DNA from: Microbacterium sp. Clip185
GTDB taxonomy: Bacteria; Actinomycetota; Actinomycetes; Actinomycetales; Microbacteriaceae
Direction of reading: 5' to 3'
Length of the DNA stretch: 64,000 nt
Assembly (NCBI RefSeq): GCF_028743715.1
Contig: NZ_CP117996.1
Coordinates: 186,001 to 250,000 of the forward strand
Position numbers and translations under genes: made by a program. Shown piece after piece: positions 34,836 through 61,275 of this stretch. The notes beneath the pieces are model-generated. The model worked only from the letters and a program-made list of their open reading frames with translations, was not told the origin of the DNA and did not search any database. Every line of letters begins with the position of its first letter. Position 1 is the first letter of the stretch.

Positions 34836-36239
34836 ATGGCGCGGACGCTGCAGGAGCTGCTGGACGAGCGAGGAAACACCGTCGAGATGCTGCGCGACTC
34901 GCAGCTCGGCACCTATATCTACCCGGTCGTGCCGGCCGAGTTCACCAACTGGCGCCGGGAGCAGAAGGCGTGGCGCGAGACGGCCGTGCTCTACGACCAG
35001 ACCCACCACATGGTCAACTTCTTCGTCTCGGGCCCCGACGCGCTCAAGCTCCTGAGCGACACCGGCATCAACTCCTTCGCGAACTTCCCGGTCAACACCG
35101 CCAAGCAGTTCGTGCCGACCGCATCCAACGGCGGCGTCATCGGCGACGGCATCCTCTTCCACGAGGCCGAGAACGAGTACGTCTACGTCGGCCGTGCGCC
35201 GGGCGCCAACTGGCTGCAGTTCCACGCCGAGACCGGCGGCTACGACGTCGAGTTCCGCTACGACGACCGCTCGCCCTCCCGCCCCTACGGCGCCGCGGTC
35301 CACCGTGACTACTACCGCTTCCAGATCCAGGGCCCGAACGCCTGGGACATCATCGAGAAGCTCAACGGCGGACCGCTCGAGAAGGTGCGCTTCTTCCACA
35401 TGGGTGAGATGACGATCGCCGGTGAGAAGGTGCGCACCCTCCGTCACGGGATGGCGGGTGCTCCCGGTCTCGAGATCTGGGGACCGTACGCGCAGCACCA
35501 GAAGATCCGCGACGCCGTGCTCGAGGCGGGGCGGGAGTTCGGCATCGAGCCCTGCGGCTCCCGCGCCTACTCCTCGAACACCCTCGAGTCCGGATGGATC
35601 CCCTCGCCGCTGCCGGCGATCTACACGGGTGAGGGCGAGCGGGCGTACCGCGAGTGGCTGCCCGCCAATAGCTACGAGGCGATCAACGCGCTCGCGGGAT
35701 CGTTCGTCTCGGAGAACATCGAGGACTACTACCTGAACCCGTGGGAGCTCGGCTACGGCTCGTTCGTGAAGTTCGACCACGACTTCATCGGCCGCGACGC
35801 GCTCGAGAAGATCGATCCGGAGACCCAGCGCAAGAAGGTCACCCTCGCCTGGAACGATGAGGACCTGGCCAAGATCCTCACGAGCGTCATCGACCGCGAG
35901 GGCGTCGGCTACCAGTTCTTCGACCTCCCGAACGCCAACTACGGCTCGTCGAACTACGACGCGGTCATCGACGCCGACGGCAACAACGTCGGTCTCTCGC
36001 TGTTCACGGGTGTCACGGCGAACGAGAAGCGCGGACTGTCGCTCGCGACCGTCGACCGCGACGTGCCGGTGGGTGCCGAGGTGCGCGTCGTCTGGGGCGA
36101 GCCCGACGGCGGGTCGAAGAAAACCACGGTCGAGCCGCACGACCAGATCGCGGTGCGCGCCGTCGTCAGCCCGGTGCCCTACGCGGTCACCGCGCGCGCT
36201 GAGTACCAGGGCGGGTGGCGCACCACCGGAAGCCTCTGA
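34836..36239 (+). CDS. ligM: Tetrahydrofolate-dependent aromatic O-demethylase, LigM-like
   Basis: 467 aa, GcvT/T-protein fold. Sequence landmarks recalled from LigM of Sphingobium (vanillate/3-O-methylgallate O-demethylase, 471 aa) are almost all present: [25 protein letters not shown] with paired His57-58, [18 protein letters not shown] (200-217), [20 protein letters not shown] with Tyr245, [15 protein letters not shown] and the C-terminal EPHDQ...VVSPVPYAV. The methoxyl methyl goes to THF, giving 5-methyl-THF. It is divergent from galBCD, so demethylation to gallate is the likely role. It is too long for, and lacks the neighbours of, a glycine-cleavage T-protein. Confidence 0.85.
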
Positions 36240-36304
36240 GCGAGCGCCCCGCGCGACGAAGGGGTCGTGCGGGCCGCTCCGGAAACCCAGGCGCCTCGGC
36301 GCCG

Positions 36305-36346
36305 GCGTGACGCCCCCACATCTCTCTAGAGTTGGGGGCGTCACGC
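36305..36346. terminator. Terminator between ligM-like and lysR genes
   Basis: A perfect 14-bp stem, GCGTGACGCCCCCA (36305-36318) with TGGGGGCGTCACGC (36333-36346), loop of 14 nt. It ends both convergent transcripts; the next gene's stop is 4 nt away. Confidence 0.8.
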
Positions 36347-36349
36347 ATG

Positions 36350-37276
36350 TCAGGGGGCTTGCTCGCCGTGGATGGCCTCGAACCGACCGGAGGAGCCGCG
36401 GATCGCGCGGGCGACGGTTTCGAAGAGCCAGTCGAGCGCGGCGGGATGCTGGGAGCTCGACCGTCGATAGAGCGCGATTTCCACGGGCGGCATGTCGAAC
36501 GGCAGCGGCCGCACCACGAGAGGCCAGGTCTGCGTCCACCCGAGCGCGATCGTGTCCGGCAGTGTCGCGATGAGGTCTCGATCGCGCGCGAGAAGCGGGG
36601 GAAGCGACGCGAGGTGGTTCACGGCGATGCGGGCGTCGATCTCGATTCCGTGCGCGCGGCGAGCCTCGGCGAGGGCGGGTGCGCCGGAGTCGCTGGCGAC
36701 GACGACATGAGATGCGGCGGCGTACGCGTCGAGCGTCAGCGGCTCGTCGGCGAGCGGATGCGCGGCTGACATCGCGACGCCGTAGCCCTGCGACTTCAGA
36801 ACAGTGCGCCCGAAGGGGCCCGGCACGTGGGAGGGTGTCACCGCGAGATCGACGACGCCGCGGCCCAGCCAATCGGGCAGGGCCGCCACATCCATCGGCA
36901 CGACCTCGATCCGCATCCGCGGGGCCTCGGCGCGCACAGCGCGGACGATCGCGGGAAGCCAGCCGATCTCGCCGAGCTCGGACAGCGCGATGCGGAAGGT
37001 GCGGTCGGAGTCGGCGGGGGCGAATCGGTGCACGCCGTCGAGAGTGCGGTCGACGGCGGCAAGGGCATCGCGGAACCCCGGGTAGACGCTGTCCGCCAAC
37101 GGGGTCGGTTCCATCACGCGGCCGACGCGTCGGAACAGCGGGTCATCGAGCTCGCGCCGCAGGCGCCCGAGCGCCTGACTCACCGCCGGTTGGGTGACGT
37201 AGAGGCGACGCGCGGCGCTCGTGAGACTCCGGGTCTCGGCGATCGCCACGAACACGCGGATGAGGTTCAGGTCCAC
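36350..37276 (-). CDS. LysR-type transcriptional regulator
   Basis: 308 aa: N-terminal helix-turn-helix (LIRVFVAIAETRSLTSAARRLYVTQPAVSQALGRLR, residues 4-39) and a periplasmic-binding-like effector domain of the NodD/PcaQ-like group. GTG at 37276 is chosen because CAGGAG lies about 6 nt upstream and the DL-NLIRVF start is typical of the family. Divergent from the O-demethylase gene at 37407, its probable target, with an aromatic acid as probable co-inducer (inference from family habit). Confidence 0.88.
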   Translation of the reverse strand: MDLNLIRVFVAIAETRSLTSAARRLYVTQPAVSQALGRLRRELDDPLFRRVGRVMEPTPLADSVYPGFRDALAAVDRTLDGVHRFAPADSDRTFRIALSELGEIGWLPAIVRAVRAEAPRMRIEVVPMDVAALPDWLGRGVVDLAVTPSHVPGPFGRTVLKSQGYGVAMSAAHPLADEPLTLDAYAAASHVVVASDSGAPALAEARRAHGIEIDARIAVNHLASLPPLLARDRDLIATLPDTIALGWTQTWPLVVRPLPFDMPPVEIALYRRSSSQHPAALDWLFETVARAIRGSSGRFEAIHGEQAP

Positions 37277-59464: not shown

Positions 59465-59511
59465 GATGAACCTCTCTGTTCGGGACCGGCGCCTCGGGTG
59501 AGGCGTCGGAG

Positions 59512-60387
59512 TCAGGTGAAGACGATGGTGTGGTTGCCGTGCCGGATGACACGGTCTTCGGCGTGCCACTGCACGGCGCGCGAGAGTACGGCCCGCTCGA
59601 CGTAGGCACCGCGGGCCTGGAGGTCGGCGGCGGTCATCGAGTGGTCGACGCGGGCGACGTCCTGCTCGATGATCGGGCCCTCGTCGAGGTCCTTGGTGAC
59701 GTAGTGGCTGGTGGCGCCGATGAGTTTGACGCCGCGTTCCTTGGCCTTCTTGTAGGGGCCTGCGCCGATGAAGGCGGGAAGGAAGGAGTGGTGGATGTTG
59801 ATCACCGGCACGCCGACGCCCTCGAGGAAGTCGTCGGTGAGGATCTGCATGTAGCGCGCCAGCACGACGAAGTCGACGTTGCCCGCGAGCAGCTTCACGA
59901 TCTCTCGCTCGGCCTCCGACTTGTCCGGGCCCTGCGAGGGCACGTGGAAGAAGGGGATGCCGAACGAACGCACGTCTTCCGCCGTGTTCGTGTGGTTGGA
60001 GATCACCATGGGGATCGTGACGTTGAGCTCGCCCCGGCGGTGGCGCCACAGCAGCTCGAGCAGGCAGTGGTCGCTCGTGGAGGCGAGGATCGCCATCCGC
60101 TTCGGAACCGACTGGTCGGTCAGGCGCCACTGCATCCCGTAGGGCTCCAGCGTCTGCGCGAGGTCTGCCTCGATGTCGCCGATCGCCGCCGCGAGGTCGG
60201 GGCGGTGGAAGACGACGCGCTGGAAGAATGCGCCGCCCTCGGGGTTGTCCGAGTACTGGTCGAGCGTGACGATGTTCGCCTTGTTGCGCGTGATGAGCGC
60301 GGTGACGGCGGCGACGAGCCCGGGCTGGTCGGGGCCGTGCACGATCAGGCAGGCGTGGTCGCGCAGGGCGTCTTTGTGCAGGGACAT
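59512..60387 (-). CDS. purU: Formyltetrahydrofolate deformylase
   Basis: 291 aa: N-terminal ACT domain (about 10-85, [16 protein letters not shown]) and a formyltransferase-like hydrolase domain with [18 protein letters not shown] (catalytic His, Asn) and the Asp in DLDEGPII. Hydrolyses 10-formyl-THF to formate and THF. In most bacteria it balances the one-carbon pool; here, between metF and the demethylase gene, it probably regenerates THF for O-demethylation and disposes of the methyl carbon as formate. 12 nt after metF. Confidence 0.93.
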
Positions 60388-60399
60388 GCGGGGATCTCC

Positions 60400-61275
60400 T
60401 CAGGACTGCGCGGCGATGTATTCGCGGGCCCAGTCGGATGTCGCCCGCAGACCGCCGAACGTGTAGAAGTGAATTTTGACAGGTCCGCGGGAGTCCTTCT
60501 GCGCGACGAGCGCGCCGAGGTCGCCGATGAACCGGTCGGGACCCGCCGTTCCCATGAGGTTGGTGAGCGAGAACCCGTACTTCTTCACGATCATCGCGTT
60601 CGCGCCGACGCCGAAGCGGCGGGCGAAGGTGATCAGGCGCTTGATGCCGGCGGGGCCGGGGGTGCCGATGCGGATCTCCGAGGTGATCCCGCGGCCGCGC
60701 ACGCCGTCGATCCAGTCGATGACGGGGTCGGTGTCGAACGCGAACTGCGTGAGGATGACCTGGCCGAGACCCGCATCGGTGAGCGCCGCCGACTTGTCCT
60801 CGAGGTGGCGCCACAGGACGTCGGTGGGGATGTCGGGGTGTCCCTCGGGGTAGCCGGCGATCGAGACCTCGCGCACGCCGTACTTCTGCAGGATGCCGGA
60901 GCGGATGACGCTCAGCGAGTCGGGGTACGGGCCCTCGGGTTCGGCCGGGTCGCCGCCGACGGCGAAGACGTGCTCGGTGGCACCCACCTGCTGCAGGCGG
61001 TCGAGGAACTCCTCGAGCTGTGCGGCGGAGGCGAGCCGACGGGCGGAGACGTGCGGGACGGGGACGAATCCCGCATCCTTCACGGCCTTGGCGGCGGCGA
61101 CGCGCATGTCGAGGTCTTCGTTGCCGAGGAAGGTGACGTTGATCTTGGTGCCGGCGGGGATGACGTCGCGGGCTTCCTCGAGTCCGGGGACGTCCTTGCC
61201 GGTCATCTCGAGCGAGAAGCCGTCGAGGAGCGCGAGGGATGCGGCCGGGTCGGGTGCGGGGGTGTTACGTGCCAC
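60400..61275 (-). CDS. metF: Methylenetetrahydrofolate reductase
   Basis: 291 aa, FAD TIM barrel. Seen: SLEMTGKD near the start (Glu of the family), [22 protein letters not shown] (folate/FAD-binding GD), [11 protein letters not shown] (YPEGHP signature) and [11 protein letters not shown] (TQFxxD). MetF normally makes 5-methyl-THF; with a demethylase as operon partner it should run in reverse, oxidising 5-methyl-THF to 5,10-methylene-THF. It is somewhat divergent in its N terminus from housekeeping MetF, in line with a dedicated paralogue. GGAAGGA precedes GTG at 61275; the operon promoter carries a clear operator. Confidence 0.88.

Follow-up and report, generated by a model that had tools for sequence, protein, structure and literature searches.

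A predicted O-demethylation and gallate ring-opening system in Microbacterium sp. Clip185

How might an actinobacterium strip the methyl groups from methoxylated aromatic acids, dispose of the resulting C1 units and open the ring? This question is raised by a 64,000-nucleotide stretch of Microbacterium sp. Clip185 (NZ_CP117996.1, positions 186,001 to 250,000; hereinafter the window), part of a 3.3 Mb genome in one contig, in which a preliminary description had recognized four GcvT-fold proteins and ascribed LigM/DesA character to all of them. Our analysis favors, with a probability of roughly 0.7, a system that would break down methoxylated aromatic acids, in which predicted LigM-class enzymes would demethylate the substrate, PurU would provide the exit of the C1 unit as formate, and a gal operon ending in a gene for a VOC (type I) extradiol dioxygenase would take care of ring opening. 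Family membership, gene order, conservation and absences are reported below as observed, and all enzyme functions are predicted from them.

The four GcvT-fold proteins

A genome-wide profile search recovered six genes with the GCV_T domain, four of which lie in the window as had been described; of those beyond it, one is at 2.04 Mb (284 bits, GcvT-like) and the other at 2.34 Mb. The window genes are:

34836..36239, plus strand: ligM1, predicted LigM-class tetrahydrofolate (THF)-dependent aryl O-demethylase, divergent from the gal operon
37407..38765, plus strand: desA2, DesA-like GcvT-fold protein with Trp in place of LigM Arg122
49691..51121, minus strand: desA3, DesA-like GcvT-fold protein with His in place of Arg122
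58061..59464, minus strand: ligM4, second predicted LigM-class enzyme (GTG start assigned here), last gene of metF-purU-ligM4

With the LigM model (NF047885, cut-off 580 bits), ligM1 scores 926.8 and ligM4 873.6 bits (the latter scored on the long open reading frame (ORF) 58061-60814), and their products are respectively 69% and 68% identical to LigM of Sphingobium lignivorans SYK-6 (PDB 5x1i); the closest Microbacterium proteins, among the best 120 of 8000 matches, are 92-93% identical to ligM1. For desA2 and desA3 the best-scoring model is that for DesA (NF047633, cut-off 800 bits), of which they fall 227 and 326 bits short (572.9 and 474.2 bits); they are likewise under the LigM cut-off (519.5 and 438.7 bits). 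Four sphingomonad plasmid homologs, which we took as DesA proteins, reach 835-898 bits with the DesA model. None of the four window proteins attains the cut-offs of the GcvT, DmdA or sarcosine oxidase (SoxA) models, the best values being 85.3 of 300 bits (PRK00389, GcvT), 48.7 of 410 (DmdA) and 49.6 of 1164 (SoxA). With scores of hundreds of bits, chance resemblance of the demethylase and PurU proteins to their families was ruled out.

We examined key residues in an alignment of 102 sequences, from which hits aligned over fewer than 350 residues or with inner stops were left out. The position of LigM Tyr247, which from the LigM structure papers we take to be catalytic, is a tyrosine in all four proteins of the window and in each of the 87 homologs from the loci fetched for comparison. 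Arg122, which from the same papers presumably holds the substrate carboxylate, is kept in SYK-6 LigM, ligM1, ligM4, four plasmid LigM proteins and all four sphingomonad DesA proteins, as well as in 43 of 44 ligM1-type and 14 of 14 ligM4-type rows from the fetched loci, whereas the desA2-type rows (n=16) have Trp (12), His (3) or Leu (1) and the desA3-type rows have His (13 of 13); a DesA-like protein of Rhodococcus opacus also has His there. His60, Gln57 and Trp256 are kept in desA2 and desA3. The methyl-transferring tyrosine has been marked in proteins of this kind (PMC9296663).

A tree of 70 of these sequences (at most 14 per class, each longer than 430 residues) unites ligM1, ligM4 and SYK-6 LigM in a 32-row clade (support 88/80), with ligM4 in an actinobacterial LigM clade of its own; a wider 34-row clade that takes in rhizobial LigM has a weakly supported limit (89/45). 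The desA2 clade (14 rows, 99/95) and the desA3 clade (14 rows, 98/100) lie apart from both DesA (4 rows, 91/100) and LigM, on a joint DesA-like side (85/97) that also holds one row (L010) of ligM1 type by best hit; the GcvT root branch is very long. Judged by sequence, ligM1 and ligM4 are LigM-class enzymes, and desA2 and desA3 are separate actinobacterial DesA-like lineages without LigM's Arg122. The LigM/DesA character described for all four thus stands for the first two, over the LigM cut-off and grouped with SYK-6 LigM, and not for the latter two, which lie under both cut-offs in clades of their own.

As their equivalog membership suggests, LigM1 and LigM4 would use THF as acceptor for the methyl group of vanillate or 3-O-methylgallate, so that 5-methyl-THF would form together with protocatechuate or gallate. 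The desA2 and desA3 products may act on other methoxy-aromatics, and one may be the missing syringate enzyme. That one of them is a true syringate demethylase despite its scores, completing a syringate path, we consider possible but doubtful. The best-scoring model and the retention of the catalytic Tyr, His60, Gln57 and Trp256 favor it, as does the report that Novosphingobium LigM preparations had no detectable syringate activity (PMC8091115), so that another enzyme would be needed for syringate; the shortfall of 227 and 326 bits, the replacement in every desA2-type and desA3-type row of the arginine that all four DesA proteins keep, and the separate clades speak against it.

LigM is sparsely distributed. 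A protein over the LigM cut-off is encoded in 11 of 396 genomes of a phylum sample, the window's own included, and in 9 of 150 genomes of a family sample (the window's family, by inference Microbacteriaceae), or in 11 of these 150 at E <= 1e-100.

The gal operon and its terminal VOC dioxygenase

On the strand opposite ligM1 lie the following genes, in this order:

33870..34625, minus strand: galB-like PIG-L protein (PF02585), proposed 4-oxalomesaconate hydratase, from family and operon position
33166..33873, minus strand: galC, predicted 4-carboxy-4-hydroxy-2-oxoadipate aldolase (NF006731)
32106..33179, minus strand: galD, 4-oxalomesaconate tautomerase-like, PrpF fold (PF04303, NF033377)
31070..32086, minus strand: VOC (type I) extradiol dioxygenase, proposed gallate dioxygenase from TIGR03211, PDB relatives, metal ligands and linkage

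The preliminary description had named galBCD-like genes, which are indeed present, at 32106-34625, outside its own starting point of 34836; it missed the dioxygenase gene that follows them. GalC passes NF006731 (274.9 bits, cut-off 179), and the hydratase function of the galB-like protein is one that we assume by analogy. A type II dioxygenase elsewhere in the genome was rejected as the ring cleaver, there being no genome-wide match to the LigB family at E <= 0.001. We propose the VOC protein as the gallate ring-cleaving enzyme: it would open gallate to 4-oxalomesaconate, which GalD, GalB and GalC would take to pyruvate and oxaloacetate.

By eye, alignment to MndD indicates an intact metal site in the VOC protein (His156, His219 and Glu270, found in 81, 80 and 81 of 81 rows). 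Tyr202, a tyrosine in 81 of 81 rows, aligns by eye with a His of homoprotocatechuate dioxygenase (HPCD) that we take to be its acid-base residue. Lys250 is invariant (81 of 81) and Arg294 nearly so (80 of 81, with one gap), which would allow for a carboxylate substrate. Phe246 and Gly297 align, again by eye, with two HPCD arginines that presumably bind the carboxylate; given these replacements, deduction of the substrate from residues was set aside as not decisive.

For linkage, an alignment of 17 dioxygenases was scanned against one genome per species, yielding at least 575 relatives, of which the best 80, with up to 10 kb of flank on each side, constitute the 80 loci referred to hereinafter. 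Hits covering less than half of the query were dropped, LigM and DesA-like neighbors were scored at >=60% identity, and related species were counted separately; the counts are lower bounds, several contigs being short, and those for metF, purU, padR and the importer are so too from the 10-kb reach around the dioxygenase. The VOC gene has galC or galD within 6 kb in 70 of the 80 loci, galC on the same strand within 4 kb in 63, galD in 65, and galB within 5 kb in 47. LigM occurs within 10 kb in 51 loci, and a DesA-like protein, metF and purU are nearby in 26, 14 and 12. The VOC gene therefore tracks the gal genes more closely than it does LigM, which points to gallate. In Rhodococcus wratislaviensis (L076), for instance, galB-galC-galD-voc overlap end to start, and no LigM was detected within 10 kb of the set. 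A 21 kb locus of Naasia lichenicola (L077) brings together hits to LigM, desA2, desA3, metF (30%), purU, folE, folD, pabB, galB, galC, galD and the VOC gene.

Among the 150 family genomes, five have both LigM (over cut-off) and the VOC gene (E <= 1e-100), four LigM only, four the VOC gene only and 137 neither (Fisher P 2.4e-5, or 2.3e-4 without the window's genome; kinship uncorrected). Strong LigB matches occur in two of the four LigM genomes lacking the VOC gene (G427, G538). LigB as a substitute for the VOC enzyme is weakly backed, since LigB matches occur in 36 of the 150 genomes, among them one with LigM, VOC and LigB (G431) and one with VOC and LigB (G439).

Might the VOC enzyme instead cleave 3-O-methylgallate, like DesZ, with a hydrolase converting the resulting 2-pyrone-4,6-dicarboxylate (PDC) or methyl ester to 4-oxalomesaconate and LigM serving mainly for vanillate? 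VOC enzymes tolerate 3-substituted catechols, which fits this reading, and in the R. wratislaviensis locus an amidohydrolase gene is divergent from galB-galC-galD-voc (212 bits with the 4-sulfomuconolactone hydrolase model, cut-off 500; presumably kin of LigI), with homologs in 6 of the 80 loci that would fit cleavage via PDC. That amidohydrolase, however, has no hit in the window or in the fetched stretches of its genome, and the overlapping four-gene set of R. wratislaviensis would be enough for gallate. Moreover, the window and many of the loci have ligM1 in divergent orientation to the gal operon, and enzymes of its class convert 3-O-methylgallate to gallate. We regard this reading as unlikely.

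That the VOC protein is simply a catechol 2,3-dioxygenase, or has protocatechuate as its substrate, and that its association with galBCD is secondary, we think quite improbable. Some sources do name it catechol 2,3-dioxygenase, and the model of that enzyme (TIGR03211) is the nearest; but it scores 288.2 bits against a cut-off of 320.2 (the R. wratislaviensis relative scores 318.9), and the linkage to galC or galD in 70 loci and the near-invariance of Lys250 and Arg294 argue against catechol. For protocatechuate 4,5-cleavage, no LigC-like gene was noticed, although no dedicated search was made, and a pca cluster lies elsewhere in the genome.

The methyl group and the protocatechuate branch

The one-carbon part of the system comprises, besides ligM4, the following genes:

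60400..61275, minus strand: metF-like, atypical methylenetetrahydrofolate reductase (MTHFR) family (PF02219)
59512..60387, minus strand: purU, predicted formyl-THF deformylase (TIGR00655)
57372..57968, minus strand: padR, PadR-family regulator after ligM4 (PF03551)
56794..57375, minus strand: folE2, predicted GTP cyclohydrolase I, overlapping padR by 4 bases
29950..31062, plus strand: MetE-like C-terminal methyltransferase (NF005085), possible methyl sink

The metF-purU-ligM-like operon of the preliminary description is real: metF, purU and ligM4 follow one another in the same orientation, from 61275 down to 58061 on the minus strand, with padR and folE2 behind them. The MetF-like protein matches PDB 7xg9, which we take to be SYK-6 MTHFR, with 279 bits (next entry, 36), and is the only PF02219 match of the genome, leaving room for a divergent reductase outside that family. 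The SYK-6 enzyme (S6MTHFR) is said to work in the reverse direction (PMC12585457), and the window's protein would oxidize 5-methyl-THF to methylene-THF. PurU passes its model (352.3 bits, TIGR00655 cut-off 285.95), formate-tetrahydrofolate ligase (FTHFS) has no match in the genome, and FolD has one; formate via PurU is hence the simplest exit, and the likely one on this gene content, as the preliminary description had supposed. In this route the single FolD would convert methylene-THF to formyl-THF, and PurU would release formate and regain THF. FolE2, which would enlarge the folate pool, passes one FolE model (NF006826, 174.6 bits, cut-off 162), lies under the cut-offs of three others and is, as had been claimed, a paralog, the other folE copy being at 3.02 Mb. 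The MetE-like protein (542.2 bits with NF005085, cut-off 313), whose gene has the dioxygenase at most 5 kb away in 22 of the 80 loci, might, as a guess, consume part of the methyl-THF.

Alternatively, the cluster could be there to supply one-carbon units and methionine and not for carbon catabolism, a role that has been proposed for LigM and S6MTHFR of SYK-6 (PMC12585457). The 7xg9-like protein being the genome's only MTHFR-family match and the MetE-like gene adjoining the dioxygenase would both suit this. Yet the C1 unit would be lost as formate through PurU, the cluster adjoins a ring-cleavage operon, and the 284-bit GCV_T match at 2.04 Mb suggests a normal glycine cleavage T protein, all of which leaves a supply role rather unlikely.

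Protocatechuate would pass to a separate pca cluster at 295-303 kb of the genome, which includes a 4-hydroxybenzoate monooxygenase-like gene. A gene at ~299 kb exceeds the pcaH cut-off and has pcaG-, pcaB-, pcaD- and pcaC-like genes beside it, the pcaG-like one identified by an intradiol match only. With this cluster present, vanillate could end in the beta-ketoadipate pathway. At 304014-304670 of the genome (12015-12671 of the fetched stretch L112), a protein scores 267.5 bits, just under the type A chloramphenicol acetyltransferase cut-off of 270.

The preliminary description had also held that the window lacks VanAB and P450 demethylases. Neither was found among the scanned window ORFs, in a scan that omits most of the first 21 kb, and VanAB was rejected as a hidden alternative, none of five genome-wide Rieske matches, read by eye, being VanA-like. 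A P450 gene does lie 10.7 kb past the window's end (genome 260739-261926; 13740-14927 of the fetched stretch L111), with CYP199 structures nearest (272 bits). CYP199 enzymes demethylate 4-methoxybenzoates, and this P450 could supply vanillate from veratrate.

Several observations count against the catabolic reading as a whole. No protein exceeds the DesA cut-off, so that of the full path from methoxylated lignin acids envisaged earlier, the gallate-type lower pathway is supported and the syringate branch is not. The galB-like protein has a family match and no specific model, GalC is under the narrower aldolase model TIGR02798 (245.8 against 304.5 bits), GalD scores 435.7 bits with NF033377, 4 below the cut-off of 440 (its relatives in L076 and L086 exceed it, with 521.3 and 493.5), and the shortfall of the VOC protein against TIGR03211 belongs here too, as do the amidohydrolase homologs in six loci. 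The pcaB- and pcaD/C-like genes are below their cut-offs. Ten of the 80 loci have neither galC nor galD within 6 kb (in one of them, L011, the contig is short and galD is hit in part), and in the family sample a LigM over cut-off is missing from 4 of the 9 genomes with VOC, as is the VOC gene from 4 of the 9 with LigM. The MetF of a similar cluster in R. opacus is just 27% identical to that of the window, so this type of MetF is no fixed component. A folE gene was found in 1 of 80 loci and was dropped as a constant component, in a test biased by the 10-kb reach of the loci around the dioxygenase, which would miss even the window's own folE at a distance of 25 kb.

On balance, we give somewhat better than even odds to a more specific proposition, namely an actinobacterial gallate pathway whose type I VOC ring cleaver, with Tyr202 for the usual His, would take the place of the type II GalA/DesB enzymes without being homologous to them, joined to a LigM/PurU formate exit and to two O-demethylase lineages without Arg122.

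Upstream elements, neighboring genes and known systems

Two DNA elements of the window were compared across the upstream regions of its relatives, genes with <200 upstream bases being dropped:

34732..34752: conserved element in the ligM1/galB divergent region, holding TTGTTGACAAT
61331..61346: palindrome ACCTATGTCGATAGGT, upstream of metF

The divergent region contains a stretch conserved among 33 aligned sequences. TTGTNNACAAT was found upstream of galB in 33 of 46 cases and of ligM1 in 21 of 43, where random stretches taken from these loci would lead one to expect 0.5; for metF, ligM4, desA2 and desA3 the upstream counts are 0/14, 0/14, 1/15 and 0/13. The window itself has four rows of it at two places (0.91 expected; reached by 4 of 100 shuffles), of which the site near desA3 was rejected, the relatives giving no backing; its reverse form has no match in L111. 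The palindrome CCTATNNNNATAGG, present at 61331-61346 of the window and in the ligM1 upstream regions of L007-L086, was found with at most one mismatch upstream of metF in 9 of 14 cases and of ligM1 in 16 of 43 (0.15 and 0.45 expected from random stretches). It also occurs upstream of galB in 12 of 46, a region common with ligM1, and of voc in 3 of 80, and is absent upstream of ligM4 (0/14), desA2 (0/15), desA3 (0/13), galD (0/54) and purU (0/11). The window has one exact copy at metF and one with three mismatches at ligM1. With three mismatches allowed, ACCTATNNNNATAGGT has six window matches against 2.69 expected, the metF match alone being exact, and GTCAAN7TTGAC was discarded as an operator, being no more frequent than chance. 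The palindrome common to the metF and ligM1 upstream regions therefore suggests a common regulator of the C1 operon and ligM1, for which PadR, whose gene adjoins ligM4 and has homologs in 15 of the 80 loci, is a candidate. By eye, the intergenic stretch 38815-39830 holds several near-identical copies of a short stretch with gtgtctcacttgtgcac.

The remaining genes of this part of the window include an importer and further regulators:

51203..52072, plus strand: LivG-like ABC ATPase (ORF as listed; family matches start at ~residue 34)
52059..52769, plus strand: LivF-like ABC ATPase
52766..53653, plus strand: LivH-like permease (PF02653)
54684..55946, plus strand, start approximate: ABC substrate-binding protein (PF13458 at residues 398-752 of ORF 53646-55946)
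56066..56752, minus strand: GntR/FCD regulator (PF07729, PF00392)
36350..37312, minus strand: LysR regulator (PF00126, PF03466), divergent from desA2
48682..49608, minus strand: IclR-family regulator, adjoining desA3

The ABC importer noted in the preliminary description is thus of Liv type and spans ~51.2-55.9 kb; a LivM-like permease probably lies between LivH and the substrate-binding protein, and the importer would take up the acids. GntR/FCD homologs occur in 34 of the 80 loci. Between the demethylase genes, at 43442-45535, lies a gene for an AMP-binding acyl-CoA synthetase, for which the NCBIfam models shown are all under cut-off (best 25/89).

The notion that THF-dependent demethylation is foreign to actinobacteria is not supported by the databases and the literature. 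Among the best 120 of 8000 matches, NCBI source names already include vanillate/3-O-methylgallate O-demethylase in several Microbacterium, Arthrobacter and others. LigM-type and DesA-like proteins have been predicted in actinobacterial metagenome-assembled genomes (MAGs), among them LigM in a MAG of the Micromonosporaceae (PMC9296663). THF-dependent demethylenases of Rhodococcus and Arthrobacter have been assayed (PMC5547118), LigM is listed for Arthrobacter sp. C2 (PMC9327799), Microbacterium is labelled a veratric acid degrader (PMC10602745), and dicamba demethylase homologs are mentioned for Microbacterium (PMC9404685). In the literature covered, which consists of search listings and of passages from some of the listed papers and takes in few subscription journals, we met neither a gallate dioxygenase of type I nor a gal operon like the window's in an actinobacterium, nor an Arg122-less lineage with a known substrate. 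If the proposal is right, actinobacteria would demethylate lignin acids without an oxygenase at the demethylation step, and the missing gallate ring-opening enzyme would gain a name in genomes that now label it catechol 2,3-dioxygenase or VOC protein; both points bear on lignin carbon cycling and engineering.

Among known systems, the LigM/DesA system of SYK-6 resembles that of the window in its LigM-class demethylase over the equivalog cut-off, a MetF presumably of the 7xg9 type and gallate as a node. It differs in that the window's operon has PurU, with no FTHFS match in the genome, where SYK-6 presumably has LigH at the corresponding place, and in ring cleavage, which in SYK-6 we take to be by DesB/LigAB/DesZ and in the window would be by the VOC enzyme, with no protein over the DesA cut-off. 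Pseudomonas putida KT2440 likewise has galB-, galC- and galD-like genes in one gal operon, but its GalA is a type II LigB-family dioxygenase, whereas the window's operon ends with a type I VOC gene. Plasmid pRop44186_a of R. opacus DSM 44186 (L102) unites LigM over cut-off, a DesA-like protein, metF, purU and galB-/galC-like genes in one cluster at 480-506 kb; it differs in its class III extradiol dioxygenase pair, its folD-like, pabB and Mur-ligase-family (folC-like) genes and its distant MetF.

Three further comparisons draw on published texts. The DesA-like aminomethyltransferases of actinobacterial MAGs (PMC9296663), as described there, also form a clade off the DesA branch and keep the catalytic tyrosine, the text covered containing no gallate operon. 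The demethylenases BrdA and SesA are THF-dependent GcvT relatives in Rhodococcus, Arthrobacter and Sinomonas that differ in cleaving methylenedioxy rings, Rhodococcus BrdA being 26.7% identical to LigM and DesA (PMC5547118). PcaA of Pseudarthrobacter phenanthrenivorans, an extradiol enzyme from an actinobacterium, turns gallate into 4-oxalomesaconate as proposed for the VOC enzyme, but it is of type II, with a gallate activity 44% of that on protocatechuate (PMC8431788). Set beside these systems, THF-dependent O-demethylation in actinobacteria is already known, and what seems new is its combination with the proposed opening of gallate by a VOC dioxygenase.

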